Shown here in pieces: positions 6,722-32,288 of a stretch of DNA of 43,187 nt. Below the pieces are notes generated by a model. That model saw only the letters and a list, made by a program, of their open reading frames with translations, was not told the DNA's origin and did no database searches. The stretch's first letter is position 1. The number at the start of each line of letters is the position of its first letter. Position numbers and translations under genes: made by a program. This DNA comes from an uncultured Bacteroidales bacterium (GTDB lineage: Bacteria; Bacteroidota; Bacteroidia; Bacteroidales; Paludibacteraceae). Location of the stretch: positions 1-43,187 of the forward strand of contig CACYGT010000030.1 in the NCBI GenBank assembly GCA_902774075.1, read 5' to 3'.

Positions 6722-6725
6722 ATTT

Positions 6726-9109: not shown

Positions 9110-9137
9110 AATTAAAATATTCATTATTAATTATTCA

Positions 9138-10832: not shown

Positions 10833-10852
10833 AATTACACAAGACTTACGCG

Positions 10853-13800: not shown

Positions 13801-13990
13801 TCGCCTCTATGGTAAAGTTACCATCAAAATCGGTAATCGTACCGACTGTGGTTCCTTTCACGAGTACGCTGGCGCCGATGAGCGGACCGTCGGCGTCCTC
13901 AACTATACCCGTCACTGTGTTCTGTGCATAAGCCAAACTACCCCAAAAGAAGAGCATCGCACTCAGCACAATTTTCCAATACTGTTTCAT
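10853..13990 (-). CDS. SusC/RagA-family TonB-dependent transporter
   Basis: A 1045-residue outer-membrane transporter. In order: signal peptide (to about residue 22, SLAYAQ), a carboxypeptidase-D-like regulatory domain (VTGIVEDADGPLIGASVLVKG), a TonB box region (EVVVTAMGIKR), a plug domain with PLYVIDGVPMDN and ALYGSRASHGVILITTKK, and a 22-strand barrel ending in an aromatic residue (NFNIKF). It imports oligosaccharides into the periplasm using TonB energy, with the downstream SusD as lid. There is no N-terminal STN/anti-sigma-sensing domain, which fits regulation by the nearby AraC-type protein rather than by an ECF sigma factor pair. Confidence 0.97.
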   Translation of the reverse strand: MKQYWKIVLSAMLFFWGSLAYAQNTVTGIVEDADGPLIGASVLVKGTTVGTITDFDGNFTIEAKVGDELEFSYMGYTSQTITVTDAPIHVVMAENTEVLSEVVVTAMGIKRDRKALGYEVSEMKGEDLTKAGNPSAANSMAGRVAGLVVQETAGGASGSTRVVLRGATEIAGNNQPLYVIDGVPMDNTSYGEAGNEGGYDFGDGISSLNPDDIESMSVLKGPAAAALYGSRASHGVILITTKKANTGDAKWGVEYNGTFTLDDQLSKWDNVQQVYGMGSDGQYNYDAVTSTNKSWGPKADGGIILRYYDGQEHPFLIVPNNTAHFFELGLTATNTAVISMNTGKTGIRFAYTDLRNKDILPNSNMSRNNLNLRANTSIGKVDLDFNINYTHENVKNRPALGDDRSNVGKNLMTLSTTYDQAWLKNYENELGEYYNWNGNDVYNVNPYWEIYKNKNQSYKDLLRMNGKIVYNVIPQLKLQATVGAELNRFEFSDFKYPTTPGYEAGRLQNIFWNNRMINAEFLGIYTDSWGDFDFTATAGANVYDVNNKVLTNTGSDMSVREVVAMSSFKEQSVEESTYRKRIVSVFGSANLGWRHMLYLDATVRGDKSSTLAAGKNLYVYPSVSGSWVFSELIKSHRNVLPYGKIRLSWAEVGSDTDPYQLSLRYSKAQFGYSGYDIGFVYGNSSPNADLKPTRTRSIETGFETKWCNSRISLDFTYYHQVSKDQIIAMATSSASGYDYNLINAGAILNQGFEITFGARLVSVKDFTWDLGINWSKNDNKVLDLIEGTNELELTRASWKNIAVTARVGEQYATLCGPAFLRNEEGRVIVDGKTGLPKYTTEYKVLGNAQWDWTGGISTTLRYKMVSLTALFDIKVGADIFSMSECSAYETGKAKETLVGRAEWYASEEARRAAGVTSGWVATGGYLVDGVIDNGDGTYRDNDIYVNPETYWREVSNNTPEPFIYDNSYVKCRELTLTLDFPRNWLDKRGIVKHVGISFVARNPFIIWKNIKDIDPDAQYNTSGLGLEYGSLPSRRSYGLNFNIKF

Positions 13991-14017
13991 AGATTGTTTG
14001 TTAAATGAATATTAGGA

Positions 14018-15310: not shown

Positions 15311-15314
15311 AGTA

Positions 15315-17777
15315 TTAAAGAATTATAGTATATTCATGTTTACCGGGTGCATACGGCAGTACCGTCGGTTGGTCTGCATGCTGTTTACCATTCGGGTTCT
15401 TGACAGTGATAACATACTCGGCATCGCGCCATTTACGGGTTACCTTGTACTCCTTGAGGTCACTCGGGATACAGGGGTTAACACGCAGCCCTTCGTATGT
15501 CGGTTGGATACCTAAGATGTGCTGACTGATGACGAGCCAGTTCCATGCAGCCGTACCGGTGAGCCAGCTGTTCTTGCCCTCTCCGGGCTTAGCGGCTTCC
15601 TTGCCGGCCACCATCTGGCAATAGACATACGGCTCTACCTTATGCAGATCCTGATCTTTGATCCACGCCGGCGCAATCTTCTTATAGAGTGTCCAAGCAT
15701 CGTTACCTCGACCGGCTTCGGTCATAGCGATGATGACCCATGGGTTGTTATGGCAGAAGATACCACCGTTCTCCTTATAACCAGCCGGATAGGTGCTTTG
15801 CTCGCCGAGTTCGATATGATAGGTCGTATAGGCGGGATAATTGAGCACCATACCATGCTCGCTGTCCAGCAGTTTAGCGGCACTGTCCAACGCTTTCTCC
15901 GGCATGCCGAGTTCGGCGCCGATACGTGCCATACCGCACCAACCTTGGCTCTCGATGAAAATCTGTCCCTCCTCGTTCTCATGAGATCCTACTTTGTTGC
16001 CATAGAAGTCATAGGCACGCAGGTACCATTCGCCGTCCCAACCGAACTGCTCTACGGCCTTGCACATCTTCTCGATCTCTGCCTCGTAGGCCGAAGCGTC
16101 CATCTTCTTTGCCTTCAGCAACTCTACAAACTGACGCCCGCAGAAGACGAACAGACCTGCGATCATCAGGCTCTCCGCCTTACTACCCTCGGTCTTATTG
16201 CCCGTCGTCTGGAAGGATTCATTCGGATCGTTGGAGAAGCAGTTGAGATTCAAGCAGTCATTCCAGTCCGCACGACCGATGAGCGGCAGGCCGTGAGGAC
16301 CTACATTGTTGACTACATGGTTGAAACTGATACGCAGATGCTCCAACAGACTCACTTCCGTTCCCGGTTCGTTATCCCAAGGCACCATCTCGTCGAGGAT
16401 GCTGAAATCGCCCGTCTCACGGATATACGCCGTTGTACCAAAGAGAAGCCACATCGGGTCGTCATTGAAACCACCGCCGATATCGTTGTTACCGCGTTTG
16501 GTGAGCGGTTGGTACTGATGGTAGCAACCGCCATCCGGGAACTGGGTCGAAGCGATATCGATGATACGTTGACGGGCACGCGAAGGGATCTGGTGAACGA
16601 AGCCCACGAGGTCCTGGTTCGAGTCACGGAAGCCCATTCCACGACCTACTCCACTCTCGAAGAACGATGCCGAACGACTCATACAGAACGTGATCATACA
16701 CTGGTACTGATTCCAGATATTGACCATGCGGTTCATGCGTTCGTCGCTGCTCTCAACATGGTATTTGCTGAGCAACTCATCCCACAATGCATTCAGTTCT
16801 GCAAAAGCAGCATCTACAGCCTTTACGGTTGCAAAACGTTTCAGCACCTCGTGCGCGTGTACCTTATTAATAATATGATGATCTTTCTCGCCTAAAGACG
16901 TCAACTCTCCGTTATGAGTAGCAAACTTCTGGTCCTGTTCATTCTCTGCATAGCCGAGCACAAAGATAAAATCTTTACTTTCACCCGGCTCCAGTCTGAC
17001 CTCAATATAATGGCTCGCTATCGGGCTCCAGCCATGTGCCAAGCTATCCTTCGAATGACCGGACATTACTGCTTCGGGTTCACTAAGGTCATTATACAGG
17101 CCCACAAACGACTCGCGGTCCGTATCGTATCCCTGTACCGGGCAATTGACAGCATAGTAAGCATAGTGGTCGCGACGCTCTTTGTACTCGGTCTTATGGT
17201 AGATAGTAGTCCAGTCACCGCGCTCTATCTCCACCTCGCCGGTCGAGAGATTACGCTGGAAATTCTCACCATCGGTTGCGGCATTCCACAGACACCATTC
17301 TGCATAACTGAACAGCCTGAGCGTTTTTCTTTCTTTATCCTCGTTCGTGAGGGTCAGTTTCTGAATCTCTGCCTTCACGCCCAGCGGTACAAAATACAAT
17401 ACGCTCGCGCGTAGCCGATTGCGCACACCTGTTATGCGCGTGTAGTTCAGACCATGGCGGCACTCATACTTGTCCAGTTTGGTTTTGCAGGGTTTCCATC
17501 CCGGATTCCATACAATCGTCGGCTGACCAACGAATATCGGTTTCTCCGAAATATAAAAATAGCGGCCTACCGAATCCATCGGGACGCTATTGTAACGATA
17601 ACGGGTGATACGACGGAACTTCGCATCCTTGTAGAAGTTATAACCGCCTGCGGTGTTAGAAATCAAACCGAAAAAGTCTTCGTTTCCAAGGTAGTTGATC
17701 CAAGGGAAAGGAGTTTTCGGATCGGTGATGACGTATTCGCGTTTTGCGTCATCGAAATGTCCGTATTCTTTGCTCAT
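15315..17777 (-). CDS. GH94 cellobiose phosphorylase
   Basis: An 820-residue family 94 phosphorylase without a signal peptide, so cytoplasmic. It converts cellobiose plus phosphate to alpha-glucose-1-phosphate and glucose, saving ATP. Recognisable stretches are the N-terminal YGHFDDAKREYVITDPKTP, PWINYLGNEDFFGLISNTAG, GMGFRDSNQDLVGFVH (380-395) and GLPLIGRADWNDCLNLNCFS, where Asp504 of RADWND is the catalytic general acid in this family. The C-terminal WLTGTAAWNW (substrate pocket) is also present. The close match to cellobiose rather than chitobiose or cellodextrin enzymes is by recall of motifs. As the first gene of the operon it has a promoter about 25-55 nt upstream, facing the divergent AraC-type gene. 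Confidence 0.94.
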   Translation of the reverse strand: MSKEYGHFDDAKREYVITDPKTPFPWINYLGNEDFFGLISNTAGGYNFYKDAKFRRITRYRYNSVPMDSVGRYFYISEKPIFVGQPTIVWNPGWKPCKTKLDKYECRHGLNYTRITGVRNRLRASVLYFVPLGVKAEIQKLTLTNEDKERKTLRLFSYAEWCLWNAATDGENFQRNLSTGEVEIERGDWTTIYHKTEYKERRDHYAYYAVNCPVQGYDTDRESFVGLYNDLSEPEAVMSGHSKDSLAHGWSPIASHYIEVRLEPGESKDFIFVLGYAENEQDQKFATHNGELTSLGEKDHHIINKVHAHEVLKRFATVKAVDAAFAELNALWDELLSKYHVESSDERMNRMVNIWNQYQCMITFCMSRSASFFESGVGRGMGFRDSNQDLVGFVHQIPSRARQRIIDIASTQFPDGGCYHQYQPLTKRGNNDIGGGFNDDPMWLLFGTTAYIRETGDFSILDEMVPWDNEPGTEVSLLEHLRISFNHVVNNVGPHGLPLIGRADWNDCLNLNCFSNDPNESFQTTGNKTEGSKAESLMIAGLFVFCGRQFVELLKAKKMDASAYEAEIEKMCKAVEQFGWDGEWYLRAYDFYGNKVGSHENEEGQIFIESQGWCGMARIGAELGMPEKALDSAAKLLDSEHGMVLNYPAYTTYHIELGEQSTYPAGYKENGGIFCHNNPWVIIAMTEAGRGNDAWTLYKKIAPAWIKDQDLHKVEPYVYCQMVAGKEAAKPGEGKNSWLTGTAAWNWLVISQHILGIQPTYEGLRVNPCIPSDLKEYKVTRKWRDAEYVITVKNPNGKQHADQPTVLPYAPGKHEYTIIL

Positions 17778-18813: not shown

Positions 18814-19461
18814 TCAGATCTCCTTACCCGTCTGCTCCTTCGCCTCAAAGGGGAACAGACCGAAGAGTTCGGCATCGATATGATCGGTTACCCAACGGAA
18901 GTCCTCGGGGTTCTCGCCGAACTTAATACGGTCGCCTTCTACAATGAGCAACCGTCCTTTGTAGTCCTTGATCCAGTTCTCGTATTTCTCGTTCAGACCC
19001 TGCAGATAATCCATACGAATGGACTGCTCGTAGCCGCGTCCGCGTTTCTGAATCTGTGCTACGAGTGTAGGCAGTGATGCGCGCACATAGATAAGCAGAT
19101 CCGGCATCTTGACGAGCGACATCATCAAGTCAAACAAATCGCGATAGTTATCAAAATCACGATCGGACATGAAGCCCTGCTCATGAAGGTTAGGTGCGAA
19201 GATACGCGCGTCCTCATAGATCGTGCGGTCCTGAATGATATATTTATCCTGCTTGCCGATCTCCACTACGTCTTTGAAACGCTTATTGAGGAAATAGACC
19301 TGCAGATTAAATGACCACCGTGCCATATCGGCATAGAAATCCGACAGATACGGGTTGTACTCCACGCTCTCAAAACGCGGCTCCCAGCCATAATGCTTGG
19401 CTAACATGTTTGTCAGGGTCGTTTTACCGCACCCGATGTTTCCTGCAACTGCTATATGCAT
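18814..19461 (-). CDS. Deoxynucleoside kinase (paralogue 1)
   Basis: A 215-residue P-loop deoxynucleoside kinase of the dNK/dGK-dAK family. The Walker A motif is GNIGCGKTT (residues 7-15). The conserved QDRTIYEDARIF provides the Asp-Arg pair, and RGRGYEQSI is the lid-type arginine-rich segment. It phosphorylates deoxynucleosides with NTP for salvage, in the cytoplasm; which base it prefers cannot be read from sequence. The start at 19461 is chosen because MHIAVAGN begins the P-loop strand directly; the upstream extension lacks family similarity. It is convergent with the AraC-type gene (11 nt apart) and 20 nt downstream of its paralogue. Confidence 0.9.
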   Translation of the reverse strand: MHIAVAGNIGCGKTTLTNMLAKHYGWEPRFESVEYNPYLSDFYADMARWSFNLQVYFLNKRFKDVVEIGKQDKYIIQDRTIYEDARIFAPNLHEQGFMSDRDFDNYRDLFDLMMSLVKMPDLLIYVRASLPTLVAQIQKRGRGYEQSIRMDYLQGLNEKYENWIKDYKGRLLIVEGDRIKFGENPEDFRWVTDHIDAELFGLFPFEAKEQTGKEI

Positions 19462-19481
19462 ATGATTGTAATGTTGAATGT

Positions 19482-20129
19482 TTAATGTTGATTGTTTAAG
19501 GACCAATTATTCTCGCTGAACAAACCGAAAAGCTCTGCATCTACCTTGTCTATTACCGCTCTGAAATCTGCGGGGTTGTTCTCAAAATCCATTCCGTCTG
19601 ACTCAATAACGAGCACGCGTCCTTCGTATTTATGGAAGATAAAATCTTCGTACTTGTCATTTAGATCCTTGAGATAATCAATCTGCATGGTCTGCTCATA
19701 GTCTCGCCCGCGTTTCTGAATCTGCGCGATGAGTGCCGGCACAGTTTTACGCAGATAAATCATCATATCCGGCATTTTCATCTGTGACTTCATCAAATCA
19801 AACAACTCCATGAAGGTCGTATAATCGCGGTCAGAGAGGTCGCCACGCTCGTAGTTATTACGGACAAAGACATAGACGCCTTCGAAGATGGAGCGGTCTT
19901 GCACAATAGTGTGCGAGGACTGCTGCACAGCCAACATATCCTTGAAGCGCTCCTTGAGGAAATAAGTCTCCAAGCAGAACGCCCAACGCTTGATATCGCC
20001 GTAATAATCCTCAAGATAGGGATTAAAGCTCACGCTCTCAAAACGCGGCTCCCAACCATAGTACTTCGCCAACATCTTTGTCAGCGTAGTCTTTCCGGCT
20101 CCGATATTTCCTGCTATTGCAATGTACAT
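19482..20129 (-). CDS. Deoxynucleoside kinase (paralogue 2)
   Basis: A 215-residue kinase of the same family as its downstream neighbour, identical in length and with matching segments throughout (GNIGAGKTT P-loop; AKYYGWEPRFESV; VQDRSIFEGVYVF; IQKRGRDYEQTM; VDAELFGLF). The pair is a tandem duplication that has diverged, most visibly in the DRS/DRT segment and lid, so the two may differ in substrate (for example dAdo versus dGuo). In some other bacteria paired subunits form heterodimers. Its start overlaps the 3' end of the GH13 gene by 16 nt, which implies cotranscription with that gene although the functions are unrelated. Confidence 0.9.
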   Translation of the reverse strand: MYIAIAGNIGAGKTTLTKMLAKYYGWEPRFESVSFNPYLEDYYGDIKRWAFCLETYFLKERFKDMLAVQQSSHTIVQDRSIFEGVYVFVRNNYERGDLSDRDYTTFMELFDLMKSQMKMPDMMIYLRKTVPALIAQIQKRGRDYEQTMQIDYLKDLNDKYEDFIFHKYEGRVLVIESDGMDFENNPADFRAVIDKVDAELFGLFSENNWSLNNQH

Positions 20130-22531
20130 CCGGTTATCGTATAGGTTTTATTTCCACGAAGAATAAGGATCTGACCGTCACGCAGAATCTTCTGCGCTTT
20201 CGGCATCTCGCCGGTCTCGATATTCTCTATTGGCAATAAGCTCTCGAGGTCAAGATTGATAGTCGGGAGTGTTACTTCGCGACCGGTAAAAATCTTCAAC
20301 TCGCCTGCCTGCAGCGTGATCGTGCCTGATTTCGTACCGCTATCATAGTAGTCATACCATGTACCTTCCGGCAAGGTCGCTGTCTGGGCATTCGAAGCAT
20401 CAAAGTTCGCTACCACATACACGTCGCTACTCCATTGCACATAACGTACCGTCTTCGCATGTCCGAGCGACGAGGCGGTCGGATTGCCGGCAAACACGTC
20501 CGGCATAATACGCGTACGCAACTGTATCGCCTGCGCACTTCGTTCATAAGCCTTCACGCGATCAGCGTCTTTGAAATAGCCCTTAGGCTCCGGACGCGGT
20601 TTCTTACTACAGCGGTAATCGCTCTTGTCAGCGTTCTCGTGATCGACATCGCTGTTGATGGAGAAGTCATATCCGATCTCTTCGAACTGCCATAACATAT
20701 GGGAGCCGTTCAATAGTACGTTCATGGCTACACAAGCAGGTACACGACTGACACGCATTGCTTTGTCATTCTTCAAAGATCCGTTGCCGTATTTCTTACA
20801 CTTATACTGCATACGCTCCTCATCGTGGCTCTCACAGTACGATACATATCCGTCTCGGTTGGCCGACGAGATATCATCATCCTTATCCATCCACCCCATC
20901 GCTATCTGGCAATAAGCATTGTTGGTATTCATCCAGCACAGCATACCATTGTTGATGAGCGTGCCATAGTCCTGCCCGGCATGGCTGCCCCAATGCTCCA
21001 GAATCAGATATGCACCCGGAGAAGTAGCCTGCACACCCTTGCTGTTATAATCGATGAGGTTCTCCGGCGCGTTGTACTTGGTACGGCCGCAGAGACCATG
21101 ACTTAAGTCCAGACGGAAACCGTCGATCTTATATTCCGTCAACCAATATTGGAACACACGGGTGAACATCTCATGTGCCGGCTCAAAATCATGGTTCCAA
21201 TCCTCTCCGTAGTCATTATCATCGTGCTTTACTTCCGACCCGACGCAGAACCAAGGATTATATTTCAAATCATCGCCCCAGGGATAGAGCTTAGCCATCG
21301 GGTTGAGACCCGTAGTATGGTTGAACACCATATCGACGATCACAGCGATGCCGTGCTGGTGACACTCATCGACGAACTGCTTGAACATCTCCGGTGTACC
21401 ATATGCCTTATCAAACGCAAAATAGAGCGTCGGGTTATATCCCCAACTCATGTTACCCTCGAACTCCGATACCGGCATCAACTCGATCGCATTCACGCCT
21501 AACTGTTTAAGATAATCCAAACGCTCGCGCACGCCCTCTATCGTACGTTTGGCGGTATAATCATATACCCACAACTCGTAGATAACGAGGTTGTTCTTAT
21601 CCGGGCGTTGGAAGTTCAAGGTTGCGTCCGACCAATCATATGCGGGCTTATTGGTCTGTATAACCGTCACATATCCACCATCTGCACCTCGCTTCGGATA
21701 GTCGATCAAAGTCGGGTCGATTTTCTTCGGCTCATACTGATCATGCGGGTGAAGCACTTTCTCCGAATAGAGATCGCAGATTTGTTTCTTCACGCCATCT
21801 GCACGCTCTACCGCATACTGGAAGCGGTATTCCTGTCCCGGTTCCAGATCGTTGAGTGTGATCCAGAAATAGTTACCGTCCTTATACAACTGATGCTCCG
21901 CATCGAGTTTCCAATCGGTCATATCGCCCAAGAGGAACACACGCTTTGCGGACTCCGTTCTGCTGGCTGCGTACGTACAAAGGGTGACCTTGTGCGGATC
22001 ATTCGCATCGTAATAGATACCATTGCTTACTCCTGCCGGGCGTGCTTTGGTCGTTGGAGTCACACCGTCTACCGCCGCCCAGAGATCTGTATCTGAGTTA
22101 TCTTCTCCGATCCAGATAAAGATATCACCTGAAGCTGCTTTACCTTCCTGCGTACCGCCGGGGCCGTCATGGAACACAAAAGCCAAGGCCTTGATATCTG
22201 TCGTCTGAGGCACATTGTAGAAGGAGTACATATTATCAATAACCAACCTCCATTTGTTATCACCCAGGCTTTCCAGTTGCGGCTGGCTGGCACTACGCCA
22301 AGAACCGATTACATTCTTCCAATCGCCGGTATTCTTCGACGCCGCCGTGATAAGACCCGTATGGGCATAACACTGCTTTGCACCTACCATTCCGCCATTA
22401 CCGCGCGTAGCGTCAAAGATGATCACAATCTGGCCGGTATAACCCGAATCTACAGGATTGGGAGTCACGGTCAATTGCGCCATAGACGCAAGAGCCACAA
22501 GGCACATAATAAGGGTAAAGAGTTTTCTCAT
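20114..22531 (-). CDS. Secreted multidomain GH13 alpha-amylase-type enzyme
   Basis: A roughly 805-residue secreted enzyme. A signal peptide (to about residue 18, ALASMAQ) is followed by an N-terminal beta domain (about 20-160) and a CBM48-like domain (about 195-265, KRVFLLGDMTDWKLD). The GH13 barrel follows, with region I VDMVFNH (399-405), nucleophile Asp475 in DGFRLDLSHG, acid/base Glu512 in LILEHWG and region IV SHDEER. Domain order and motifs recall Bacteroidota enzymes acting on starch, pullulan or glycogen; exact specificity is uncertain. The C-terminal 25 residues (KILRDGQILILRGNKTYTI) match the tail shared by the neighbouring amylases. Met at 22537 (MDMRKLF) is an alternative start. 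It has its own promoter and runs into the kinase genes. Confidence 0.88.
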   Translation of the reverse strand: MRKLFTLIMCLVALASMAQLTVTPNPVDSGYTGQIVIIFDATRGNGGMVGAKQCYAHTGLITAASKNTGDWKNVIGSWRSASQPQLESLGDNKWRLVIDNMYSFYNVPQTTDIKALAFVFHDGPGGTQEGKAASGDIFIWIGEDNSDTDLWAAVDGVTPTTKARPAGVSNGIYYDANDPHKVTLCTYAASRTESAKRVFLLGDMTDWKLDAEHQLYKDGNYFWITLNDLEPGQEYRFQYAVERADGVKKQICDLYSEKVLHPHDQYEPKKIDPTLIDYPKRGADGGYVTVIQTNKPAYDWSDATLNFQRPDKNNLVIYELWVYDYTAKRTIEGVRERLDYLKQLGVNAIELMPVSEFEGNMSWGYNPTLYFAFDKAYGTPEMFKQFVDECHQHGIAVIVDMVFNHTTGLNPMAKLYPWGDDLKYNPWFCVGSEVKHDDNDYGEDWNHDFEPAHEMFTRVFQYWLTEYKIDGFRLDLSHGLCGRTKYNAPENLIDYNSKGVQATSPGAYLILEHWGSHAGQDYGTLINNGMLCWMNTNNAYCQIAMGWMDKDDDISSANRDGYVSYCESHDEERMQYKCKKYGNGSLKNDKAMRVSRVPACVAMNVLLNGSHMLWQFEEIGYDFSINSDVDHENADKSDYRCSKKPRPEPKGYFKDADRVKAYERSAQAIQLRTRIMPDVFAGNPTASSLGHAKTVRYVQWSSDVYVVANFDASNAQTATLPEGTWYDYYDSGTKSGTITLQAGELKIFTGREVTLPTINLDLESLLPIENIETGEMPKAQKILRDGQILILRGNKTYTITGCTLQ

Positions 22532-22567
22532 ATCCATCGATGTATTAGATTATTTCAAACGAGTGCA

Positions 22568-22599
22568 CAAAGTTACAACATTTTTTTGAATTACACAAA
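22568..22599 (-). promoter_or_regulatory. Promoter of the multidomain GH13 gene
   Basis: Minus-strand TTTG (22596-22599), a 20-nt spacer and TAACTTTG (22568-22575) give a full consensus about 35 nt upstream of the start. It lies downstream of the terminator that ends the preceding gene, so this gene and the kinases form a separate transcription unit. Confidence 0.75.
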
Positions 22600-22627
22600 T
22601 CTTTCATCATTTTTCTTATAAAAAGGC

Positions 22628-22659
22628 AAAAAAAGAGTGAGCAGTATTACTGCCCACTC
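22628..22659 (-). terminator. Terminator after the repeat-module protein gene
   Basis: On the minus strand a 10-bp stem (22635-22644 with 22650-22659, one G-U wobble, 5-nt loop) is followed by a run of T. It closes the starch cluster transcript that ends with the repeat-module gene. Confidence 0.85.
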
Positions 22660-22681
22660 CTTCTATTCAAGACATTTGATT

Positions 22682-24313
22682 TTATTGAATCTTTTGTCCC
22701 ATTACGGTGTAAACCTTATCACCACGGAGGATCACTACCTGTCCGTTATGCATCAGTTTAACTGCATGCTCGCTTGCGTCGATGTTCTCGAAGCCTGCGC
22801 CATGGTTAGCCTCAATGTAGATGAAGCCACCGAATGCGCTCCACTCGCTGTTGCCTGCAGGACGGAAGTAAACGGTCTTAGCGCCAGCATGTTTAGCGTC
22901 AACGACATACTCGTTGCCTTCGCCTTCCGGATACCAGATCTTGAGAACATCAGCCTCAACCTTAACAACCTTGATCGGGTCATTCTCCTTGAGTGTTACG
23001 TCAAGTTTGAACTCACCATCTTGACCTTCGTTCGCCACAAACAAGAGGCTTGCATCAAGAGCTGCCAGATCCCAACCCTTCTGACCAATCAGATAGTAAC
23101 CATCCTCCAAGGTCTGCGGTTGCGGTTCGTCAACATAGAAGTTACCGATGAGTTTGAACTCCTTCTCGTTGTAGATGATGGTTACATTACCTGCCTCTTT
23201 AAGAACGAAGCGGATATTGTGGTTGCTATACTCATCGATCTCTTCGTACAGACCGGCAGCAGTGTCGGTGAGGTGACGGAAGTCACGTTGCTCACCTTCC
23301 CACGTACCGTCTAAGGTCAGACGCATTACAACAGTATCAGTTGTCAGGCTCAGAACAAGCGTATCAGTCATCGACTTGATAGCGTCCGGAGTCCAAGCCT
23401 TATCACCTGCGATAGCTGCGTTACCGGTTACATAGAACTTAGGCTTCTCAACGATCGGAGCATCCGGGAAGGTAACTACGACAGTGTTGGTAGCATAGGT
23501 CCAAGTGAATGTATATTCACCTTCAGCGTCTGCTTTCAGCTTGAGGCTAGGACCATAAGAAACTTCCTGATTTACACTTTCTGCCTTCGGATTTTCACGA
23601 GTTACCTCATATACATCCTCTTTGTGCAGCCAGTGGCCGTCAACAACTACCTTGAAGTCATAATCCTTTGCTTCCAGACTCATCGTCACGCTTGCGGTGA
23701 GACCGTCTTCAGCAGCCTTCATGACGTTAGCGTTTTCGTTCCAGTCGTTCATCGCGCCTGCGATAGCAACCTTCGGAAGCTCAACAGGAGCCACATAGAA
23801 CTTGCCTTCCAGCTTGAAGGTTACTTTCTCGTTCTCTACGAAGTAGATAACATTGACTTTACCGTCCTCTGCCATAGAGAAGCAGATATTGTCATTGTCG
23901 CTACCTTCACCACGAGTCAGACCTTCAGCCTTCTCAGTCAGTGCATCGAAACCAAGTACGTGCTCGTTCCATTCACCGTCAAGTGTCAACTTCAGCATGT
24001 AATTCTGGTCTACCTTCAGATCCAATACCAATGTATCAGTCATGGACTTGATAGCTGCAGGATTCCACTGGAGCTCTTCGCCTACCAATGCTGCGTTACC
24101 CGTTACATAGAACTTCGGTTTCTCAATAGGATCCGGTGCAGGGATTACTACACTGATCTCATTGTTCTCATTTGCACGGAAGATGAACAGATACTCACCT
24201 GCCTTGGTCGTCTGGAGAGCTACGTTCTTGTCGCCCTTCAACCACCAACCGGTGCTGTTACCATATTCCATCGTAGCCTCTTGCTCATTTCCGAACCAAG
24301 TAGTGTCGGCACC
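22682..24313 (-). pseudogene. C-terminal fragment of a large repeat-module starch-binding-type protein
   Basis: About 544 codons continuing, in a shifted frame, the gene that starts at 26294. The frame opens at GADTTWFGNEQEATM and holds a Trp-rich half module, then a 110-residue unit starting KPKFYVTGNAALVGE, a CBM48-like unit (KVAIAGAMNDWNENANVM ... FKVVVDGHWLHKE), a second KPKFYVTGNAAIAGD unit, a further starch-binding-like segment with VYFRPAGNSEW, and the C-terminal tail KLMHNGQVVILRGDKVYTV shared with the amylases. No catalytic motif was found, so binding or scaffolding is inferred. If this were an intact gene, translation could begin only at an internal Met (24271) with no signal peptide, which argues for a broken gene. 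Confidence 0.75.
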
Positions 24314-24891
24314 CTGTCTGCCTCAAGAGCAATTGCAATGCTCAAGCTGTCTGCCTTATCTGCCTTCAGCTCTACCATCTTTGCTGCCCAATCGGTCATC
24401 GTACCTGCAATGAAGTAATGAGCTACAGGTGCTACATACTTGCCTACCAGGACTGCCGTCAATACGCTGTCTGCAGGGTTGAACGAGAACAATACGGTAT
24501 CGTTCTCTACGATCTCTGCACCTGCGATAGGACGTACACCCTCTTCCTCAACAGTGTTGCTGAAGAACATGTTGCCTTCGTCTGCTGCCTTGTCGTTGAT
24601 GTTAACACCAATGCCTTTATATACGATCGTGTCTGTCAGCCACTTGCCTTCCTTCTCGGTCAGCAGCGTCCATGCCCAGTCCGGTGCGTACTTAGCATAG
24701 TACTTCTTATCCGGTGCAGGGATTACTACACTGATCTCATTGTTCTCATTTGCACGGAAGATGAACAGATACTCACCTGCCTTGGTCGTCTGCAGAGCTA
24801 CGTTCTTGTCGCCCTTCAACCACCAACCGGTGCTGTTACCATATTCCATCGTAGCCTCTTGCTCATTTCCGAACCAAGTAGTGTCGGCACC
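24238..24891 (-). pseudogene. Internal fragment 4 of the repeat-module protein
   Basis: The frame runs from GADTTWFGNEQEATM through the same Trp-rich segment found in the next fragment, then a unique stretch (KKYYAKYAPDWAWTLL ... VRPIAGAEIVENDTVLF) and VAHYFIAGTMTDWAAKMVEL. After about 24311 the reading becomes non-homologous and stops at 24238, because the DNA there is the start of the next GADTTW copy read in the wrong frame. The 184-bp DNA repeat 24709-24892 / 24131-24314 is almost identical between the two fragments. There is no start codon with a signal peptide here. Confidence 0.7.
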
Positions 24892-25374
24892 CCCAATCGG
24901 TCATCGTACCTGCAATGAAGTAATGAGCTACTGGAACATAGAATTTTCCTTCTAACTTGAACACTTTATCGGTATAGATAACCTTTACCTCACCGGCCTC
25001 AGCCAGTTTGAAGAAAATGTTGTCATCAGCATCTGCACTCAGACCTTCTGCAACAGGAGCGGTCAGTTTGCTAAAGCCATTAGCACCTTCCCAAGTACCA
25101 TCTGTAACCTTGAGGTGATACTCACCTACCGGCAGATTAAGAACGAACGTGTCCTTCTCAGACTTGATAGCGTCTGCTTTCCAAGCCTTCATTTTGTCAG
25201 CGCCACCAGCTACGACCAATGCGGTATCGCCGGTGATGTAGAACTTAGCAGGAATCTCTACATGGAAATCACCCAGTACTTTAAATACTTCGGGCTCGCC
25301 TGCTTTGTAAACCACTTTTACCTTACCGGCCTTGTCAAGACGGAAGCCGATATTGTGGTCATCGCTGATGTCTT
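24863..25374 (-). pseudogene. Internal fragment 3 of the repeat-module protein
   Basis: Begins after a 16-bp deletion relative to the copy at about 25640 and encodes the end of one module (DDHNIGFRLDKAGKVKVV) and one complete module starting PAKFYITGDTALVVAGGAD and ending KLEGKFYVPVAHYFIAGTM. It then reaches TMTDW, where sequence expected before the GADTTW segment is missing; the frame changes and stops at 24863. All surviving residues look like conserved coding sequence, so the lesions are recent or artificial. Confidence 0.7.
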
Positions 25375-25584
25375 CTCGCTCAGCTCATTGTAACCCTTCA
25401 CGTTGTTCGCACCTTCCCAAGTACCGTTAACGGTAACTTTGAGGACATAGTCTTGATTTGCTTTCAAATCAAGTTCGAACGTGTCTTTCTCAGACTTGAT
25501 TGCGCCAGGATTCCAAGCTTTTGCCTTGTCCAGGCCTGCGTCTACGATCAGGGCGCTGTCGCCGGTGATGTAGAACTTAGCAGG
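25375..25584 (-). pseudogene. Internal fragment 2 of the repeat-module protein
   Basis: A short piece in a third frame with no possible start. From the join it reads PAKFYITGDSALIVDAGLDK and continues through KSEKDTFELDLKANQDYVL and NNVKGYNELSEKT, up to the 16-bp deletion. It is nearly identical to the module in fragment 1, and shows that the repeat-module gene is broken on both sides here. Confidence 0.65.
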
Positions 25585-26294
25585 ACCTTACCGGCCTTGT
25601 CAAGACGGAAGCCGATATTGTGGTCATCGCTGATGTCTTTCAGACCATCGGTCTTCTCACTCAGCTCGTTGTAGCCCTTCACATTGTTCGCACCAGCCCA
25701 TGTACCATTAACGGTAACTTTGAGGACGTAATCTTGATTTGCTTTCAAATCAAGTTCGAACGTGTCTTTCTCAGACTTGATAGCGTCTGCTTTCCAAGTT
25801 TTTGCCTTGTCCAGGCCTGCGTCTACGATCAGGGCGCTGTCGCCGGTGATGTAGAACTTAGCAGGAGTCTCAGGTACGTACTTCGACCATGTACCATCGC
25901 AACCCGGGTCGCCCCAGACTGCAGATTCGGTAGTAATAGTGAAGAGATCCTTGTCATCTGTAGGAATCGTCTGATCTTTCGTCTTAGCACCCCAATTTTC
26001 CGAGCCATCACCTTTAAGACGAGTAAAAATCACCTTTTCATACTTTGACAAGTCGAGGTCGATTTTCCACAAACCTACCTGATCCTCAACAGCTGTCATC
26101 TTGACTCCGGGCCAATCAGCATTGGACGACTTTCCTTCTGTCCATGCATACGCGCCAACAGAAGCACCATCATTTGTCCACCAGCTTTGAGTCATCTTGC
26201 AATAGACTGTCTTTTCAGCAGCCTGTGCAGATGTAGCAGTGAACAAACCAAAAGCAAACACCAAAGTCATCAATAAAGAAAGAAATTTTCTCAT
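25548..26294 (-). pseudogene. N-terminal fragment of the repeat-module protein: signal peptide, CBM26-like domain and first module
   Basis: Starts with a good signal peptide (MRKFLSLLMTLVFAFGLFTA ... SAQA, mature AEKTVYCK). The next 100 residues resemble a CBM26-type starch-binding domain (YCKMTQSWWTNDGASVGAYA, then ADWPGVKM, LWKIDLDLSKYEKVIFTRL and KDQTIP). The first of the 110-residue modules follows (PAKFYITGDSALIVDAGLDK to FRLDKAGKV). At about 25586 the linker present in the later copy (67 nt, equivalent to 25254-25320) is absent, and the sequence runs into the next PAKFYITG copy out of frame, ending at 25548. Intact, the whole gene (22682-26294 plus lost DNA) would encode a secreted protein of well over 1200 residues. 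It lies 55 nt downstream of the next gene in the same operon. Confidence 0.8.
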
Positions 26295-26349
26295 GATAGA
26301 ATGTTTTTAAGTTAGTAAAAAGTTAATTAGTAATATATCTTAATATATA

Positions 26350-27237
26350 TTATTTGTCTTGTAATTGACGACCGGTAGCATCGAATACCTTGTCGCCATA
26401 GATGATATGCAGTTGACCATTCACGATCACTTTGCGAACATTGTCCTTCACCTCTGTGTTATCAATAGCCTGGTCGGTGCAGTCCACGAGTTTCTTACCG
26501 GACATAGCCTCGAAAGCCAACTCAACCGTACCGTCACCGTTGTTATAGAGATAAAGCGTATAACTACCTGCCGGAATATGCAGTTTATCACTACCTGTCG
26601 TCGTCAACGTAGCGTGCGTCGGGCCATCGACGTAAGTAGGCGCCATATATTGAACACCCGGAACACCCTTCACCTGATATACCACGAAGATATAACCGTT
26701 TTGTTCTACAGTGATTTCCGAGATACCGCAGTCGAAGATACCGCCGTCAATCTCATTGTTAATATCCTTCCCATCTACGAAACCTTTCCAGTACCAATAG
26801 GCATCAGGGTTGTCACCGGGGTTCGTTCCCGGATCGTCACCACCACCGCCACCGCAATTCTCTCCCGGACCGATGTACACCAGATCACCTGCATCCATGC
26901 TCAGTTTGATATAGAAATCATACGAACCGGCTGTTTTACAAGTCAGTTCCCCTGCTGCTTTTCCTCCTTCAAAACTCTGATAAGAGCCGTATGGATCAAT
27001 GTCCACCATCCAAGTTTCATCACAACTCAAGTTAATCAGCTTAATGATGTCACCTGCCTGCAATTCAACACAAGAAGCTTTGTACTGAACGCGCCCCTGA
27101 GCATCCGGGTCACCGAACTTAGGAGCTTCCACAACTCGACTTCCATTAATCTGGAGGCCATAAGGGCCATCTTGACATTCTGCCATCAAACCCATTGCAA
27201 ACAAAGTTGCAGCAAAAAGAGTAAAGATTTTCTTCAT
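26350..27237 (-). CDS. Secreted non-catalytic protein sharing the amylase N-terminal module and C-terminal tail
   Basis: A 295-residue secreted protein of unknown function. A signal peptide (to about residue 19, AMGLMA) is followed by about 100 residues clearly related to the N-terminal modules of the two upstream alpha-amylases: INGSRVVEAP, DAQGRVQYKASCVELQAGD, W-x-V-D-I-D-x-Y-G and AGSYDFYIKL, ending YIGPGENCG. Then comes a Gly/Asp/Pro-rich linker (GGGGGDDPGTNPGDNPD), a second beta-rich domain of about 110 residues that I do not recognise, and the shared tail KVIVNGQLHIIYGDKVFDA. There is no GH13 barrel or catalytic motif. Because it travels with the amylases and shares both ends with them, it is probably a starch-binding accessory. 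Intergenic gaps of 36 and 55 nt place it in the amylase operon. Confidence 0.75.
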   Translation of the reverse strand: MKKIFTLFAATLFAMGLMAECQDGPYGLQINGSRVVEAPKFGDPDAQGRVQYKASCVELQAGDIIKLINLSCDETWMVDIDPYGSYQSFEGGKAAGELTCKTAGSYDFYIKLSMDAGDLVYIGPGENCGGGGGDDPGTNPGDNPDAYWYWKGFVDGKDINNEIDGGIFDCGISEITVEQNGYIFVVYQVKGVPGVQYMAPTYVDGPTHATLTTTGSDKLHIPAGSYTLYLYNNGDGTVELAFEAMSGKKLVDCTDQAIDNTEVKDNVRKVIVNGQLHIIYGDKVFDATGRQLQDK

Positions 27238-27273
27238 ATTATTAGATATTAAATGTTAATTATAAATGGTTAA

Positions 27274-29007
27274 TTATTTTACCTTTCGTCCTTGGACGTC
27301 GTATATTTCCTCGCCTACGCGGATGAGCAACTGTCCGTCTTGCATGAACTTTTGGCCTTTGAGCATGGTCTTGTCGTCACCGACCGTCTCCACGTCTGTT
27401 GCCCAAGCTATGTAATACATCGCATAGTCCGTGCCTTTCACCACCACCGTATAACCTGACGGCTGTGCGTCCTCGGCCGCTGTACCCAGCATCAGTTTGA
27501 TGTTGCCGTGCTTGCCATAGACCGTCGCCCTATACCAATCGCTTCCAGCCGACTCCTCTACCGTGCTCTCCGAATGTACGCCGGCTGCACGACGCGCGTC
27601 TATCATCTTCTTGATCTCCGTTTTGTACTTGATCCAATGCGGCCAGAACACACACGGCACACCCGGCATGGAGAGGATATACGCGTTACAACGCATCATC
27701 AGACTCTTGTCGTTCACACTCGACCCGTCGCGTTTGTTGGCCACATCCTCATTGTCCGTCCCGCGGGCAAACGTATCGTGGTTATCAATGAACGTCACCG
27801 CATATTTCGAATACCCTTTGCCGCGCAGACCGCCCTTGAGGCACTTGGTATAACTCTTCTTGAAGATACCGTCGCGCAAGGTGTTGTACTTAAGTGCAAA
27901 ATCAAAGGTCAGCGTGTTCTTGCCTGCATCGTCAATACGCGATTTGAGGTGTGCCGCATCGCCATACCAGTACTCCATAACGGAGAAATACGGTTTGGAC
28001 GCACTGTTATACGCATCGATATGGCTCGTATGATACCCGCCGCAGTAGTCATAACGGAAACCGTCGTACAGCATCACGTTCTTCATCCACTTCGTGTAGG
28101 CCTTGCACATGTTCTGCACGCTGGTGTTCTTATGGTCCCAGTCGCGCGCTGCGCCGTAGTTCGCTTCGTGCTGACCGTCATCTTTATTCGCCGTTGTGTT
28201 ACAGTTGCCTTCATCATCCGAGGTCACCCACGAGGAACTGGGGGAGAACGAGCCGTACGTACCGAAGTTCAGACTGTTGAAGTCGCACCACGAGCTTCTG
28301 TTACCACAGTGGTTGATGACAATATCCGCTATCACGCGCGTACCCTTATTATGTAACGCGCCTATGAGCGCGCGAAGCTCGGACTCGCTGCCCAACGAGC
28401 AGTTCTGGTTGCTGTAACACTTGGCGATATACCCCAACCCGCCGTTCGACTCTGCGCTGGGCGGAAGCCATATGAGCGAGAAAGACGATGCGATCTCGGT
28501 GGCCTGACCGGTTAAGGTCGTCCAACGAGTGTCGCCATAGCCCTTATCCTGATAACTGTCCCAGTAGAAACCTTGCAGCATCACATCTTCGCACTCCGAC
28601 GGAACAGCCGTGTCATAGTCCTGCGGTGTGACAGGGGGTGTGTCGCCACCGGCAGCCTCGATATACCACATGTCGTCATTCATCTTCATCTTAATGAAGA
28701 TATTGTACGTTCCCGCCACATTACAGATTAAGGCATCGCTGGCTGTTGTGAAGTTAGCATACGCGCCATATTGATCTATCACGCCGATATTCCATGCTGA
28801 ACCGGATCCGGCATCATAGCACGTCAGCTTGTCATTCTTTGCCAAGGTCACGTTATACGCAGCATACTGCTTACGGCCTTGATAGTCTTGCGCACCGGTG
28901 TTCACAGCCGCCACATCACGCGAACCGTTGATACGCACGTAGAATGGTTCTGCCATCAAGGCCAAACCACTCCACACACATACTATCAATACGAAGAATC
29001 GACGCAT
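27274..29007 (-). CDS. Secreted GH13 alpha-amylase with N-terminal binding-like module (paralogue A)
   Basis: A 577-residue extracellular alpha-amylase that hydrolyses internal alpha-1,4 bonds in starch. It has a signal peptide (to about 19), the shared N-terminal module (22-118), a linker, and the GH13 barrel from VMLQGFYWDSYQD. Catalytic signatures: region I DIVINH (228-233), nucleophile Asp320 in DGFRYDYCGG, acid/base Glu345 in FSVMEYW, and Asp411 in FIDNHDT. After the barrel, KTEIKKMIDARRAAGVHSES marks a plant-type alpha-amylase C-terminal beta-sheet domain (Alpha-amyl_C2-like). The last 25 residues, KFMQDGQLLIRVGEEIYDV, form the tail shared with its neighbours. The upstream amylase ends one base before its start codon. 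Confidence 0.93.
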   Translation of the reverse strand: MRRFFVLIVCVWSGLALMAEPFYVRINGSRDVAAVNTGAQDYQGRKQYAAYNVTLAKNDKLTCYDAGSGSAWNIGVIDQYGAYANFTTASDALICNVAGTYNIFIKMKMNDDMWYIEAAGGDTPPVTPQDYDTAVPSECEDVMLQGFYWDSYQDKGYGDTRWTTLTGQATEIASSFSLIWLPPSAESNGGLGYIAKCYSNQNCSLGSESELRALIGALHNKGTRVIADIVINHCGNRSSWCDFNSLNFGTYGSFSPSSSWVTSDDEGNCNTTANKDDGQHEANYGAARDWDHKNTSVQNMCKAYTKWMKNVMLYDGFRYDYCGGYHTSHIDAYNSASKPYFSVMEYWYGDAAHLKSRIDDAGKNTLTFDFALKYNTLRDGIFKKSYTKCLKGGLRGKGYSKYAVTFIDNHDTFARGTDNEDVANKRDGSSVNDKSLMMRCNAYILSMPGVPCVFWPHWIKYKTEIKKMIDARRAAGVHSESTVEESAGSDWYRATVYGKHGNIKLMLGTAAEDAQPSGYTVVVKGTDYAMYYIAWATDVETVGDDKTMLKGQKFMQDGQLLIRVGEEIYDVQGRKVK

Positions 29008-29008
29008 T

Positions 29009-30811
29009 TTACTTCACCAGTCTACCCATCACGTCGTACACCTGCTCGCCGCAACGGATATAAAGTTTACCGTTCTCGATGAACTTCTCGCCCTTAACGG
29101 TCTGCTCATCGCTCTGTACATCTTCGACGCCCAGAGGTTTACGCTCTTTATCCTTGTCGCCGCGTGCGTTCCATGTCTTGTAATAGACACCGTAGTTCTC
29201 ACCTGTAACAGCTTTGGTGAAACCGCTCGGCGTGGTGTTATATCCCGAGTTCGGGCCAATCAACAGACGGATCTCACCGTTCGTACCGGTGATGGTCGCT
29301 TTGTAGAATCCACTACCTGCCTCATCGTTTACAGTACTCTCGCTGTGTACACCCGTTTTATAACGTGCATTGATCATCGGTTTAATCTTATCTTTGAACT
29401 TCACCCAGTGCGGATAGAACACACAAGGGATACCCGGCATCGACAGCAGGTACGCATAGCACTGCTGGATCTTACCCGGATACTTCATCGAGTTACCTTT
29501 ACCGCAGAACTCATTGTCATCACGCTGGAAGGAGTCGTGGCTGTCGAGGAAAGTCACAGCATAACGGCTCATACCGGCACCTAACATACCGGCACCTTTG
29601 AGAGCTCCGTAGTTATCCGAAGCGATGCCGCGGTTGAAAGCGTCATACTTCGTTGCGAAGTCGAACGTACAGGTGTTCCAACCCGCGTCCTGCAAACGAT
29701 CACGCAGGGTATTCACATTGCCGTCCCAGTACTCCATAACGGAGAAATATGCTTCCGAAGCTGTGTTATACTCATTGATATGGCTGTTATGGAAGCCTTT
29801 GCAGTAGTCATAACGGAAACCATCGATCTTGATCTCATTGCGCAGCCATTTCTCGTAGGCCTTGAACATGTCGCGTACCTGTTGCTGCGTATGATCCCAG
29901 TCGCGTGCTGATGCATAGTTCGCCTCATCTCCATATCCGTCATCTGCAGCACCCGTAGCCTTACCTTTGCAATCACCGGCACCTTCATCGAAGTTCATCT
30001 CGTCCGTCTTGCATATCCATGCCGCAGTCGGTTCAAACGTACCGTACTCACCGAAGTTCATCTTCTGGAACGTACACCAGGTAGTACCCTCGATATGGTT
30101 GACCACCATATCCGCTACCACCTTCGCACCGCCGGCATGCAAGTATTGAATCAACAATGCCAACTTCTCCTTTGTTCCCCAGTCACTGTCTAATCGGCTG
30201 TAACATGTCGGGTGATAGCCGGTTCCGCCGCTCGCTTTAGACATAGGCGGCAACCAAACAAGATCAAACCATGCACCGATCTCCGTAGCACTCGTGTTGT
30301 TCACACCGTTGATATGATCGATCCATTTGGTACGACCGTAACCCTGATCTTTATAACTATCCCAATAGAATGCCTGGAGCATCACATCCGGACACTGAGC
30401 CGGAGCCGATCCTGCATAAGGCAGCGGACCGTGAGGGTCTAAACACTCACCGCAGTTAGAGCCCGGACCGATATACAGTTTGTCTTCCTCGTACTTCAGC
30501 TTGATATAGAAATCAAAACAGCCCGACGTAGTTACATTATACTTCTTGCCATCACGAGTAAAGCCCTTTACCGAGGCCTCATCCAAATCGACTGCCCAAG
30601 CAGCTTCACTCACTGCGTCATACAACTGAACGACATCGCCATTCTCTACCGGCACATGCGCCAAATACTGCTTGTAACCGCCGCCATAAGGATCTTCTCC
30701 CACATACGTACCCGGATAATAACAGGTGTCATTCACCAACACTCCATAACTCTGCGCAAACGTCACCGTTGCACAAAGCACTGCCACAAAAAATACAAAA
30801 ATCTTTCTCAT
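29009..30811 (-). CDS. Secreted GH13 alpha-amylase with N-terminal binding-like module (paralogue B)
   Basis: A 600-residue paralogue of the gene downstream. A signal peptide (to about 19, TFAQ) is followed by a diverged copy of the N-terminal module (21-121, ending YIGPGSNCGEC) and the barrel from VMLQAFYWDSYKDQGYGRTK. Catalytic signatures: DMVVNH (234-239), Asp335 in DGFRYDYCKG, Glu360 in FSVMEYWDG, and Asp426 in FLDSHDS. In the last of these, Ser replaces the usual Asn before the His, a small deviation beside the catalytic Asp. A plant-type C-terminal domain (INARYKTGVHSES) and the tail KFIENGKLYIRCGEQVYDV follow. It is in an operon with both neighbouring amylases. Confidence 0.93.
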   Translation of the reverse strand: MRKIFVFFVAVLCATVTFAQSYGVLVNDTCYYPGTYVGEDPYGGGYKQYLAHVPVENGDVVQLYDAVSEAAWAVDLDEASVKGFTRDGKKYNVTTSGCFDFYIKLKYEEDKLYIGPGSNCGECLDPHGPLPYAGSAPAQCPDVMLQAFYWDSYKDQGYGRTKWIDHINGVNNTSATEIGAWFDLVWLPPMSKASGGTGYHPTCYSRLDSDWGTKEKLALLIQYLHAGGAKVVADMVVNHIEGTTWCTFQKMNFGEYGTFEPTAAWICKTDEMNFDEGAGDCKGKATGAADDGYGDEANYASARDWDHTQQQVRDMFKAYEKWLRNEIKIDGFRYDYCKGFHNSHINEYNTASEAYFSVMEYWDGNVNTLRDRLQDAGWNTCTFDFATKYDAFNRGIASDNYGALKGAGMLGAGMSRYAVTFLDSHDSFQRDDNEFCGKGNSMKYPGKIQQCYAYLLSMPGIPCVFYPHWVKFKDKIKPMINARYKTGVHSESTVNDEAGSGFYKATITGTNGEIRLLIGPNSGYNTTPSGFTKAVTGENYGVYYKTWNARGDKDKERKPLGVEDVQSDEQTVKGEKFIENGKLYIRCGEQVYDVMGRLVK

Positions 30812-30830
30812 TATATCAGTTTTTAATTAT

Positions 30831-32288
30831 TTACTCCACTACTTTTCCTTGGACGTCATACACTTTATCGCCCACACGGATCAACAACTTGCCGTCCTGA
30901 ATGAACTTCTGTCCCTTCATTTGCGGCTTTCCGCTTTCCACTTCATCAATGCCTTCGCCCACCTCGATATACATCGTGTAGTGATCGCCGTCCACACATT
31001 TCCAATAGCCTGCGGGAATGGTCATGTCGCGGTTCTTACCCAAACGAACAATCACTTTCTTCTTATGACCTTGTATCGTTCCGCTGTACGCATAACTGCC
31101 GCTGGTCTCTTCCAACACCTTCGACTCCGAATGGATACCGGCTTGCTTGCGCACTTCAATCATCTTGTTGATCTCGCTCTGATATTTCTTCCAATGCGGC
31201 CAGAACACGCAGGGCACACCCGGCATCGACAGGATATACGCATAGGCTTGCAGAATCTTCGCCTTGATATCAGCTTTGTTCAAGTCGCAGTATTGTCCGG
31301 CATACTGGTTGTTGCCGTATCCGTCGCGCTCGAACGTGTCGTGGTTATCGATGAACGTCACTGCATATCGCTCCAGGCCTACACCACGGAAGGAGTTCAT
31401 GTTCTTCTTGAGCAACTGATAATTGCCATTCACGATGGCCTTATGCAACTCGTACTTCTGCTGGAAGTCAAAAATCATCGTGTTCGAATCCGTCTCCGTC
31501 AAGTGCTGTCTTTGACGCGTAAGGCCCTCCCACAACTCCGATACCGACAGATAGGGCTCGCTTGCCTCGTTGTACATTCCCAGATAACTGCCGTGGAAAC
31601 CGAGCGTCATATCGTGACGGAATCCGTCATACTTCATTGTATCTTTCATCCAGTTCAGATAAGCCTTCGCCCAAGTCTGTACATACTCGCTCGTATGATC
31701 CAAGTCACGCAGACCGTCGAACTTTGAACCCGTATCCTTGGCACCATGTACCTCACTGCCGTAACAAGTAGAACTCGAGGTGGTAAAACACTCATCGTCA
31801 CTGCATATATGCGCCTCGGTCAACTGGAAAGTATCCTTACCGAAAACGTCCGCCTCAAAATCGCACCAATTGCTCTTGTTTGCTCGGTGATTGATCACGA
31901 TATCTGCCAGCACACGTGTATTTCCCGCATGGAGCGTAGCAATCAAATCCATCAACTTGCCTTTCGTCCCCCACGAACTGGTCTGGTTGCTCAACTGCTT
32001 ATGGTTATAACCTACACCATCCGTTCCGGCTTTTGCGCTGGGCGGCAACCAAACGAGATCAAAATACGCATTAATCATAGCCGAATCTCTCCACAAATCG
32101 ATCCATTTTGTACGGCCGTATTTGGAGTCAGAACCCGACTGATCTTTATAACTGTCCCAGTAAAAAGCCTGCAACATTACATCTTCGCACTCTGCAGGTA
32201 CGCCGATATTCTTTGCGCGTAAAGGACCTACACACGAAAAAACAAGCATGAAAGCCAGTAAAATACTAAAAGAAATGTTCCTTTTCAT
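30831..32288 (-). CDS. Secreted GH13 alpha-amylase without N-terminal module (paralogue C)
   Basis: A 485-residue paralogue and the first gene of the starch operon. A hydrophobic signal (to about residue 25) leads directly into the barrel at VMLQAFYWDSYKD, so the N-terminal binding-like module of the other two is absent. Cys19 in VFSCVG might make it a lipoprotein, but the lipobox is poor. Catalytic signatures: DIVINH (129-134), Asp226 in DGFRHDMTLG, Glu251 in LSVSELWEG, and Asp317 in FIDNHDT. A plant-type C-terminal domain (MIEVRKQAGIHSES) and the tail KFIQDGKLLIRVGDKVYDV end it. The start codon follows a consensus promoter by about 65 nt. Confidence 0.93.
   Translation of the reverse strand: MKRNISFSILLAFMLVFSCVGPLRAKNIGVPAECEDVMLQAFYWDSYKDQSGSDSKYGRTKWIDLWRDSAMINAYFDLVWLPPSAKAGTDGVGYNHKQLSNQTSSWGTKGKLMDLIATLHAGNTRVLADIVINHRANKSNWCDFEADVFGKDTFQLTEAHICSDDECFTTSSSTCYGSEVHGAKDTGSKFDGLRDLDHTSEYVQTWAKAYLNWMKDTMKYDGFRHDMTLGFHGSYLGMYNEASEPYLSVSELWEGLTRQRQHLTETDSNTMIFDFQQKYELHKAIVNGNYQLLKKNMNSFRGVGLERYAVTFIDNHDTFERDGYGNNQYAGQYCDLNKADIKAKILQAYAYILSMPGVPCVFWPHWKKYQSEINKMIEVRKQAGIHSESKVLEETSGSYAYSGTIQGHKKKVIVRLGKNRDMTIPAGYWKCVDGDHYTMYIEVGEGIDEVESGKPQMKGQKFIQDGKLLIRVGDKVYDVQGKVVE

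Follow-up and report, generated by a model that had tools for sequence, protein, structure and literature searches.

The question raised by this locus is why six neighbouring proteins of a starch-degrading gene set end in one and the same short C-terminal tail. The window, which is the whole 43,187-nucleotide stretch of DNA analysed here, comes from an uncultured Bacteroidales bacterium of the Paludibacteraceae. At 20114-32288 on its minus strand, six ORFs were present that each carry the tail. Pfam and NCBIfam scans assigned four of the products to GH13 (three alpha-amylases and one multidomain enzyme), the other two being a repeat protein of the starch-binding kind and an accessory protein. 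The features of the block are as follows.

20114-22537, minus strand: multidomain GH13 enzyme (PF00128, 2e-25) with a signal peptide; tail at 20117-20233 (E value, 8.5e-21)
22682-24271, minus strand: last piece of the starch-binding repeat gene, with an AMPK1_CBM/X25-like module; tail at 22685-22795
24238-24849, 24863-25315 and 25548-26294 (span 24238-26294), minus strand: apparent upstream pieces of the same broken gene
26350-27237, minus strand: accessory protein of 295 aa with a signal peptide; tail at 26359-26469, followed by two residues
27274-29007, minus strand: GH13 alpha-amylase of 577 aa with a signal peptide; tail at 27277-27393
29009-30811, minus strand: GH13 alpha-amylase of 600 aa with a signal peptide; tail at 29012-29131
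30831-32288, minus strand: GH13 alpha-amylase of 485 aa with a signal peptide; tail at 30834-30953

The initial annotation had described a starch set without SusC/SusD whose six proteins share a tail. This description was borne out, as the Pfam scan detected neither SusC nor SusD in the block and all six ORFs ended in the tail, with five invariant columns; the two examples quoted at the time, KFIQDGKLLIRVGDKVYDV (30831-32288) and KVIVNGQLHIIYGDKVFDA (26350-27237), were found as written. The repeat-module binding protein named there does carry the tail, on its last piece only, but is not a single intact ORF: the gene is spread over four ORFs (22682-26294), as a result of either an assembly error or real breakage. 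Its pieces contain closely similar repeats (216 nt, 93%; 184 nt, 99%), and the piece at 25548-26294 has a CBM26 match (PF16738, 1e-6) and, by eye, a signal-peptide-like start. The multidomain GH13 enzyme also showed a weak CBM48 match (PF02922, just below the cut-off), no Pfam family was matched by the accessory protein, and a possible lipobox was flagged by a crude rule in the amylase at 30831-32288. Just downstream of the block, two similar deoxynucleoside-kinase-like ORFs were seen in tandem on inspection of the sequence (18814-20129, minus strand).

The tail was characterized from a collection of 288 distinct short tails. The motif of about 25 residues reported earlier was present, but it proved to be part of a longer conserved unit of about 40 residues, approximately G-(I/V)-(E/D)-N...K-h-h-x-(N/D)-G-Q-L-x-I-x-x-G-x-x-Y-(D/N/T)-x-x-G-x-x-V-K. 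The unit starts with G in 56% of the tails, followed by I/V/L in 90%, and (Q/T)(G/A/D)(I/V/L)(E/D)(N/E) precedes the conserved lysine. Conservation was highest at Gly38 (100%), Tyr/Phe34 (99%), Lys18 (98%), Gly23 and Ile27 (94% each). The profile match reached the last residue of the protein in 200 of the 288 tails, and 0-8 residues followed it in all of them. A P-T/G-I-like cleavage pattern, crudely defined, was found in 39 of the 51 tails of the own genome described below. The tail looks too short to form a seven-stranded beta-sandwich.

A profile of the six tails was searched against the own assembly (1.80 Mb, 95 contigs, 85.75% complete) and gave 54 matches at E ≤ 10, among them the six queries; for 44 of the matches E was below 1e-3. 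As C-terminal ends of ORFs, 51 matches were retained; the three left out were two chance-like matches (C29:7104, E value, 0.15; C2:18528, E value, 0.98) and a contig-edge fragment (C27:3-62). Chance similarity was rejected on the basis of the invariant columns, the own-genome profile matches and the conservation over the 288 tails. Among 46 own tail proteins, Pfam identified alpha-amylases (4), BspA-type leucine-rich repeat proteins (3), endonuclease I (2), CotH (2) and peptidase S37 (2), together with single matches to peptidases C10, S8, S28 and M6, pectinesterase and GH53. A starch-specific module was therefore rejected, since proteins of unrelated function carry the tail.

The distribution of the tail was determined in three draws of genomes. 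At the level of the order, 4 of 149 genomes had the tail (E ≤ 0.01), namely the own genome and three with one copy each. At the level of the family (120 genomes), the tail was found in 36, SprA in 115 and TIGR04183 domains in all 120. Within the genus, all 81 genomes carried the tail, with a median of 60 copies, top counts of at least 88 and a lowest count of 3; 77 of them had at least 25. The tail is thus genome-wide and genus-wide and is not special to starch. Two of the five family-draw genomes without a SprA match had tails (G179, nine; G228, one); canonical domains occur in both and PorV in G179, and the absence of SprA from them perhaps reflects assembly gaps. In eight congeners, all of which encode SprA, the numbers of tails and canonical domains were 54/8, at least 59/11, at least 59/5, at least 59/3, 56/7, 40/14, 11/37 and 9/41, with canonical domains counted up to a ceiling of 44. 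The two counts were reciprocal (Spearman -0.85, p 0.007, a p-value inflated by the relatedness of the congeners), and the 11/37 and 9/41 congeners are close relatives of each other. The named relatives of the amylases belong to uncultured Bacteroidales and Paludibacteraceae, many of them from ruminants, and the nearest, 81% identical, comes from a Paludibacteraceae assembly from dairy-cattle rumen; the window presumably stems from an organism of this sort.

Carriers of the tail were mostly predicted to be exported. By a crude hydrophobicity rule, used in place of SignalP, a signal peptide was called in 26 of the 33 tail ORFs of the own genome whose 5' end is complete; of the remaining seven, some are fragment-like and two (L054 and L046) have signals that the rule apparently missed. 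In 76 sources, consisting of the window and 75 named loci, signal peptides were called in 189 of 196 tail ORFs versus 122 of 285 tail-less ORFs; these loci are homologous and not independent, and Fisher tests on the counts compare related loci, which inflates their p-values. Lipoboxes were flagged in 8 of the 189 tail-bearing and 26 of the 122 tail-less ORFs with signal peptides. An equal occurrence of the tail on cytoplasmic or periplasmic proteins, which the initial annotation had named as evidence against a sorting signal, was therefore not observed.

The genes of a type IX secretion system (T9SS) that the same annotation had proposed to look for, porU, porV, gldK-N and sprA, were all identified in the own genome, with PorU and GldK seen in part. 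A lack of T9SS genes, which it had named as a refutation, was thus not encountered. SprA scored 2660 bits. The C-terminal 374 aa of PorU, its C-terminal third, lie at a contig end and adjoin PorV, PorQ is encoded near SprA, and a GldK fragment is followed by GldL, GldM and GldN side by side. Both PorU and GldK, being incomplete, remained below the full-length cut-off. TIGR04183 gave eight matches in the genome at E ≤ 1e-3, five of them over the cut-off and one of them the domain of PorU itself, and none of the eight lay inside the window.

An additional shuttle of the PorV type was sought in the eight congeners and the own genome. Only two members of the PorV family were found over the cut-off in each of the congeners, and the two of the own genome are PorV and PorQ. 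When compared with six outgroup PorVs, those of the six tail-rich congeners were 49-55% identical versus 59% for the two tail-poor ones (14 of 16 PorVs, G170 and G163 left out; entry L237 stands for G000 and L229/L233 for G248/G258). This lower identity may fit co-evolution of PorV with the tail, but it carries little weight, because SprA scores also dip slightly and the tail-poor pair is close (PorV 87% identical).

Given this machinery, the tail was compared with known sorting domains. When the 51 tails were scanned alone against Pfam and NCBIfam, no family was matched by two or more of them (best E values, 0.0096 and 0.043), and a known C-terminal family was thus rejected. None of the 51 scored above the curated cut-off of TIGR04183/PF18962, and these models were absent from the Pfam rows of the six full proteins and from the NCBIfam matches listed for them, the first 25 in the case of two proteins. 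Likewise, TIGR04131/NF033708 was absent among the listed matches of the six full proteins and of the 48-residue tails, whose length is below that of a type B domain. The search against TIGR04183/TIGR04131-type models that had been suggested for the tail thus showed no known sorting-domain model among the matches listed. A canonical profile matched none of the 288 short-tail ends at E ≤ 1e-3. A sequence search of the PDB with the tail profile gave three weak, unrelated matches (best E value, 0.89), a full-text literature search for tail fragments gave no match, and no description of the tail was found in a literature search that covered few subscription papers.

A partial likeness was seen by comparison of profiles. 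Over 37 columns, the tail aligned to the type A profile within its first half, with a score of 19.3, whereas 100 column shuffles reached at most 13.8; the canonical tails of this comparison had been picked with a motif-B-like pattern. In a control whose 60 canonical tails were selected solely through TIGR04183 hits, the 288 tails aligned over 19 columns, comprising one strand and motif B, with a score of 18.4, the highest among 200 shuffles being 15.5. Ten columns, at motif B, aligned in the control with the 51 own tails, and ten also with the tail core alone in the first comparison. The profile probabilities were 16% in an initial run, 45% for the whole domain and 76% for its N-terminal half in the first comparison above, and 27-30% in the control (59% for the N-terminal half). 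Within the 288 tails, the Gly of motif B was conserved in 100% and its Tyr/Phe in 99%. Motifs D (GxY) and E (terminal Lys) were not found, with nothing beyond the 0-8 residues that follow the tail match. As judged from these alignments, the tail resembles the first half of a type A domain modestly, and mainly at motif B.

Motifs D and E might instead have been retained in another order. In such a rearrangement of the mini domain of the Prevotella intermedia type, a D-E-like hairpin (K-h-h-x-N-G-Q-L-Y-I) would precede the motif-B loop, and B, D and E would all be kept. By eye the hairpin does resemble the 'GIVIQNGHKYL' of a mini domain, and the nearly invariant lysine (98%) opens K-h-h much as a lysine opens the canonical terminal K-h-I-K; by profile, the D-E part is also matched weakly, over 9 columns with a score of 14.1. 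That score, however, lies within the range reached by shuffled tails against the mini domain (up to 17.0), and the best matches between tail and mini domains ran through motif B (20.2 and 21.1). The Gly of D and the Lys of E are out of register by eye, and the canonical C-terminal half aligned with the tail over only 1-5 columns (scores 9.2-9.5). A permuted domain is thus an unlikely origin for the tail.

Further evidence came from homologous proteins with other C-terminal ends. The bodies of 26 of the 51 own tail proteins matched ORFs at loci of the congeners G248 and G258 that bear canonical domains (E ≤ 1e-8), many of the matches being partial or weak; only loci fetched for their canonical domains were compared, so this is not an unbiased count of orthologs. 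For the multidomain GH13 enzyme at 20114-22537, the homologue in G258 (L147; 57% over approximately 480 aa) ends in a full type A domain, and so does the G248 homologue of the amylase at 29009-30811 (L146; 66% over approximately 300 aa).

A set of 75 amylase loci was found through patterns in the catalytic part and hence was not selected for the tail. The short tail was present at 63 of them, a canonical domain at four and a mini domain, in which B, D and E are all present, at seven (L311 being assigned by eye), and the end of one (L268) was cut off. Two of the proteins, L318 and L322, share 89% identity over 1027 aa and then end in a short tail and a mini domain, respectively. In an amylase tree of 78 rows built by a quick method, the three kinds of end required eight changes, and five changes were forced for the short tail by the strongly supported branches alone. 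The mini domains, seen in uncultured Bacteroidales (L313, L319-L322, L326 and others), are like the short ones of P. intermedia.

Among 823 distinct ORFs, only three tail-less ones were homologous to tail carriers up to near the C-terminus: two that are lipoproteins by eye (L291 and L292, '..LTSCHDE') and L311, with its mini-like end. With tail, canonical, mini and lipoprotein ends on homologues, these enzymes therefore occur with any of four signals. The two lipoprotein-like ORFs (L291:7386-9833 and L292:7385-9832) are homologues of the GH13 enzyme, 60-67% identical and without the tail, and appear as one enzyme on two surface routes.

This exchange also bears on whether the tail is a binding module rather than a sorting signal, a dockerin-like element joining surface enzymes in a complex or to a scaffold. 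A short C-terminal element common to six neighbouring starch proteins would suit such a role. It is nevertheless very improbable, as the tail occurs on amylases, BspA-type leucine-rich repeat proteins, nucleases, peptidases, pectinesterase and CotH and is exchanged with known sorting domains, and the short-tail ends have no second sorting domain by the canonical profile. That the tails are decayed type A remnants on proteins that are now periplasmic, a reading prompted by the likeness to the first half of the domain with the second half gone, is the least credible explanation of all, because the strong conservation, the end fixed within eight residues, the genus-wide abundance and the presence of the tail where close homologues bear another sorting domain point to selection and not to decay.

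Overall, we consider it probable (roughly 85%) that the tail is a T9SS sorting signal, shortened in design and missed by the curated models. A variant T9SS signal had been suggested from the window alone, and the comparisons of machinery, signal peptides, exchange and profiles lend support to it, since the tail replaces canonical or mini sorting domains on homologous proteins. According to this model, the signal peptide would direct the carrier through Sec. The tail, a putative beta-hairpin followed by the motif-B loop Y-D/N-x-x-G, would then be taken up in the periplasm by the SprA translocon and the shuttle PorV. At the surface, PorU would cut immediately upstream of the G-(I/V)-(E/D)-N start and attach or release the cargo.

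Published work on other species includes a counterargument. Parts of the reports on individual cargo proteins state that the motif B Gly matters in RgpB, whose secretion is blocked by the loss of two C-terminal residues (PMC11285876), and that a 22-residue segment at the end of HBP35, containing D and E, is sufficient (PMC10202324). Sections of a report on translocon structures describe a lysine near the C-terminus as the only nearly invariant contact (PMC10994853), and part of another account assigns type A cargo to PorV and type B cargo to PorP/SprF-like proteins (PMC12618676). By analogy with RgpB and HBP35, the essential C-terminal part of the domain would be missing here, as the tail has nothing in that place, and this counts against the T9SS reading.

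The odds seem even that most type IX cargo of the genus relies on half a signal, composed of the start motif, the hairpin and motif B without D and E, with PorV diverged to match. If so, about 20 residues would now separate the conserved lysine from the end, and the final pair of strands and the terminal lysine would be indispensable only in the species studied so far. Prediction of cargo by TIGR04183 would miss most of the cargo of the genus (eight matches versus 51 tail ORFs in the own genome), and the glycan degradation that such Bacteroidales carry out at their surface would be underestimated accordingly. The homologous enzymes of relatives, with long, B-D-E and half signals, would amount to a natural experiment showing which portion of a T9SS signal is required.

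The starch block is flanked in the window by a beta-glucan set, of which the following members were examined for the tail.

5089-6733, minus strand: GH9 lipoprotein, split over two overlapping frames; without the tail
9141-10859, minus strand: SusD-like lipoprotein (...ALAFVSC), assigned from its N-terminus and the PF12771/PF07715 scan of the pair; without the tail
10856-14011, minus strand: SusC-like receptor (PF12771/PF07715 scan of the pair); without the tail
14021-15322, minus strand: GH5 lipoprotein (...AVLTAC); without the tail

Besides SusC, the set includes an MFS transporter and a GH94 enzyme. The starch tail was sought at the C-termini of the beta-glucan proteins and was absent, and lipoboxes were recognized by eye in four of them (GH9, SusD, GH5 and the protein at 8108-9130), in agreement with the initial description of these proteins as tail-less and mostly lipoproteins. 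The suggestion made there of two export routes is backed by the sequences, with signal peptidase I and the tail on one side and lipoproteins on the other. Because the beta-glucan set is lipoprotein-based, the two sets side by side likely represent two surface routes.

Among known systems, the type A domain (TIGR04183/PF18962) resembles the tail in lying at the extreme C-terminus of proteins exported by Sec, in having motif B (Y-D-x-x-G-x-x-V) and in its place on homologous cargo. It differs in length, with about 72 model positions versus about 38 residues, and the tail lacks D and E after B and is not found by the type A models. The short domains of P. intermedia, present on 48 of 80 predicted cargo proteins (PMC11969387), are similarly shortened and contain the conserved Gly and Tyr of motif B, and the start of the tail resembles their PT/GI cleavage consensus. 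Their length is given as 40-51 residues for the seed set, or 43-55 residues, and all of B, D and E are retained in them (PMC11969387), whereas the tail stops after B and has its hairpin-like stretch before B. Type B (TIGR04131) and type C (ChiA) domains are likewise C-terminal T9SS signals, but type B is far longer and type C differs in sequence. Finally, Ca. Paraporphyromonas polyenzymogenes is a rumen member of the Bacteroidetes that uses the T9SS for clustered glycoside hydrolases, according to parts of its description (PMC5831590); as stated there, its cellulase signals were found with TIGR04183, a model that misses the present tail.
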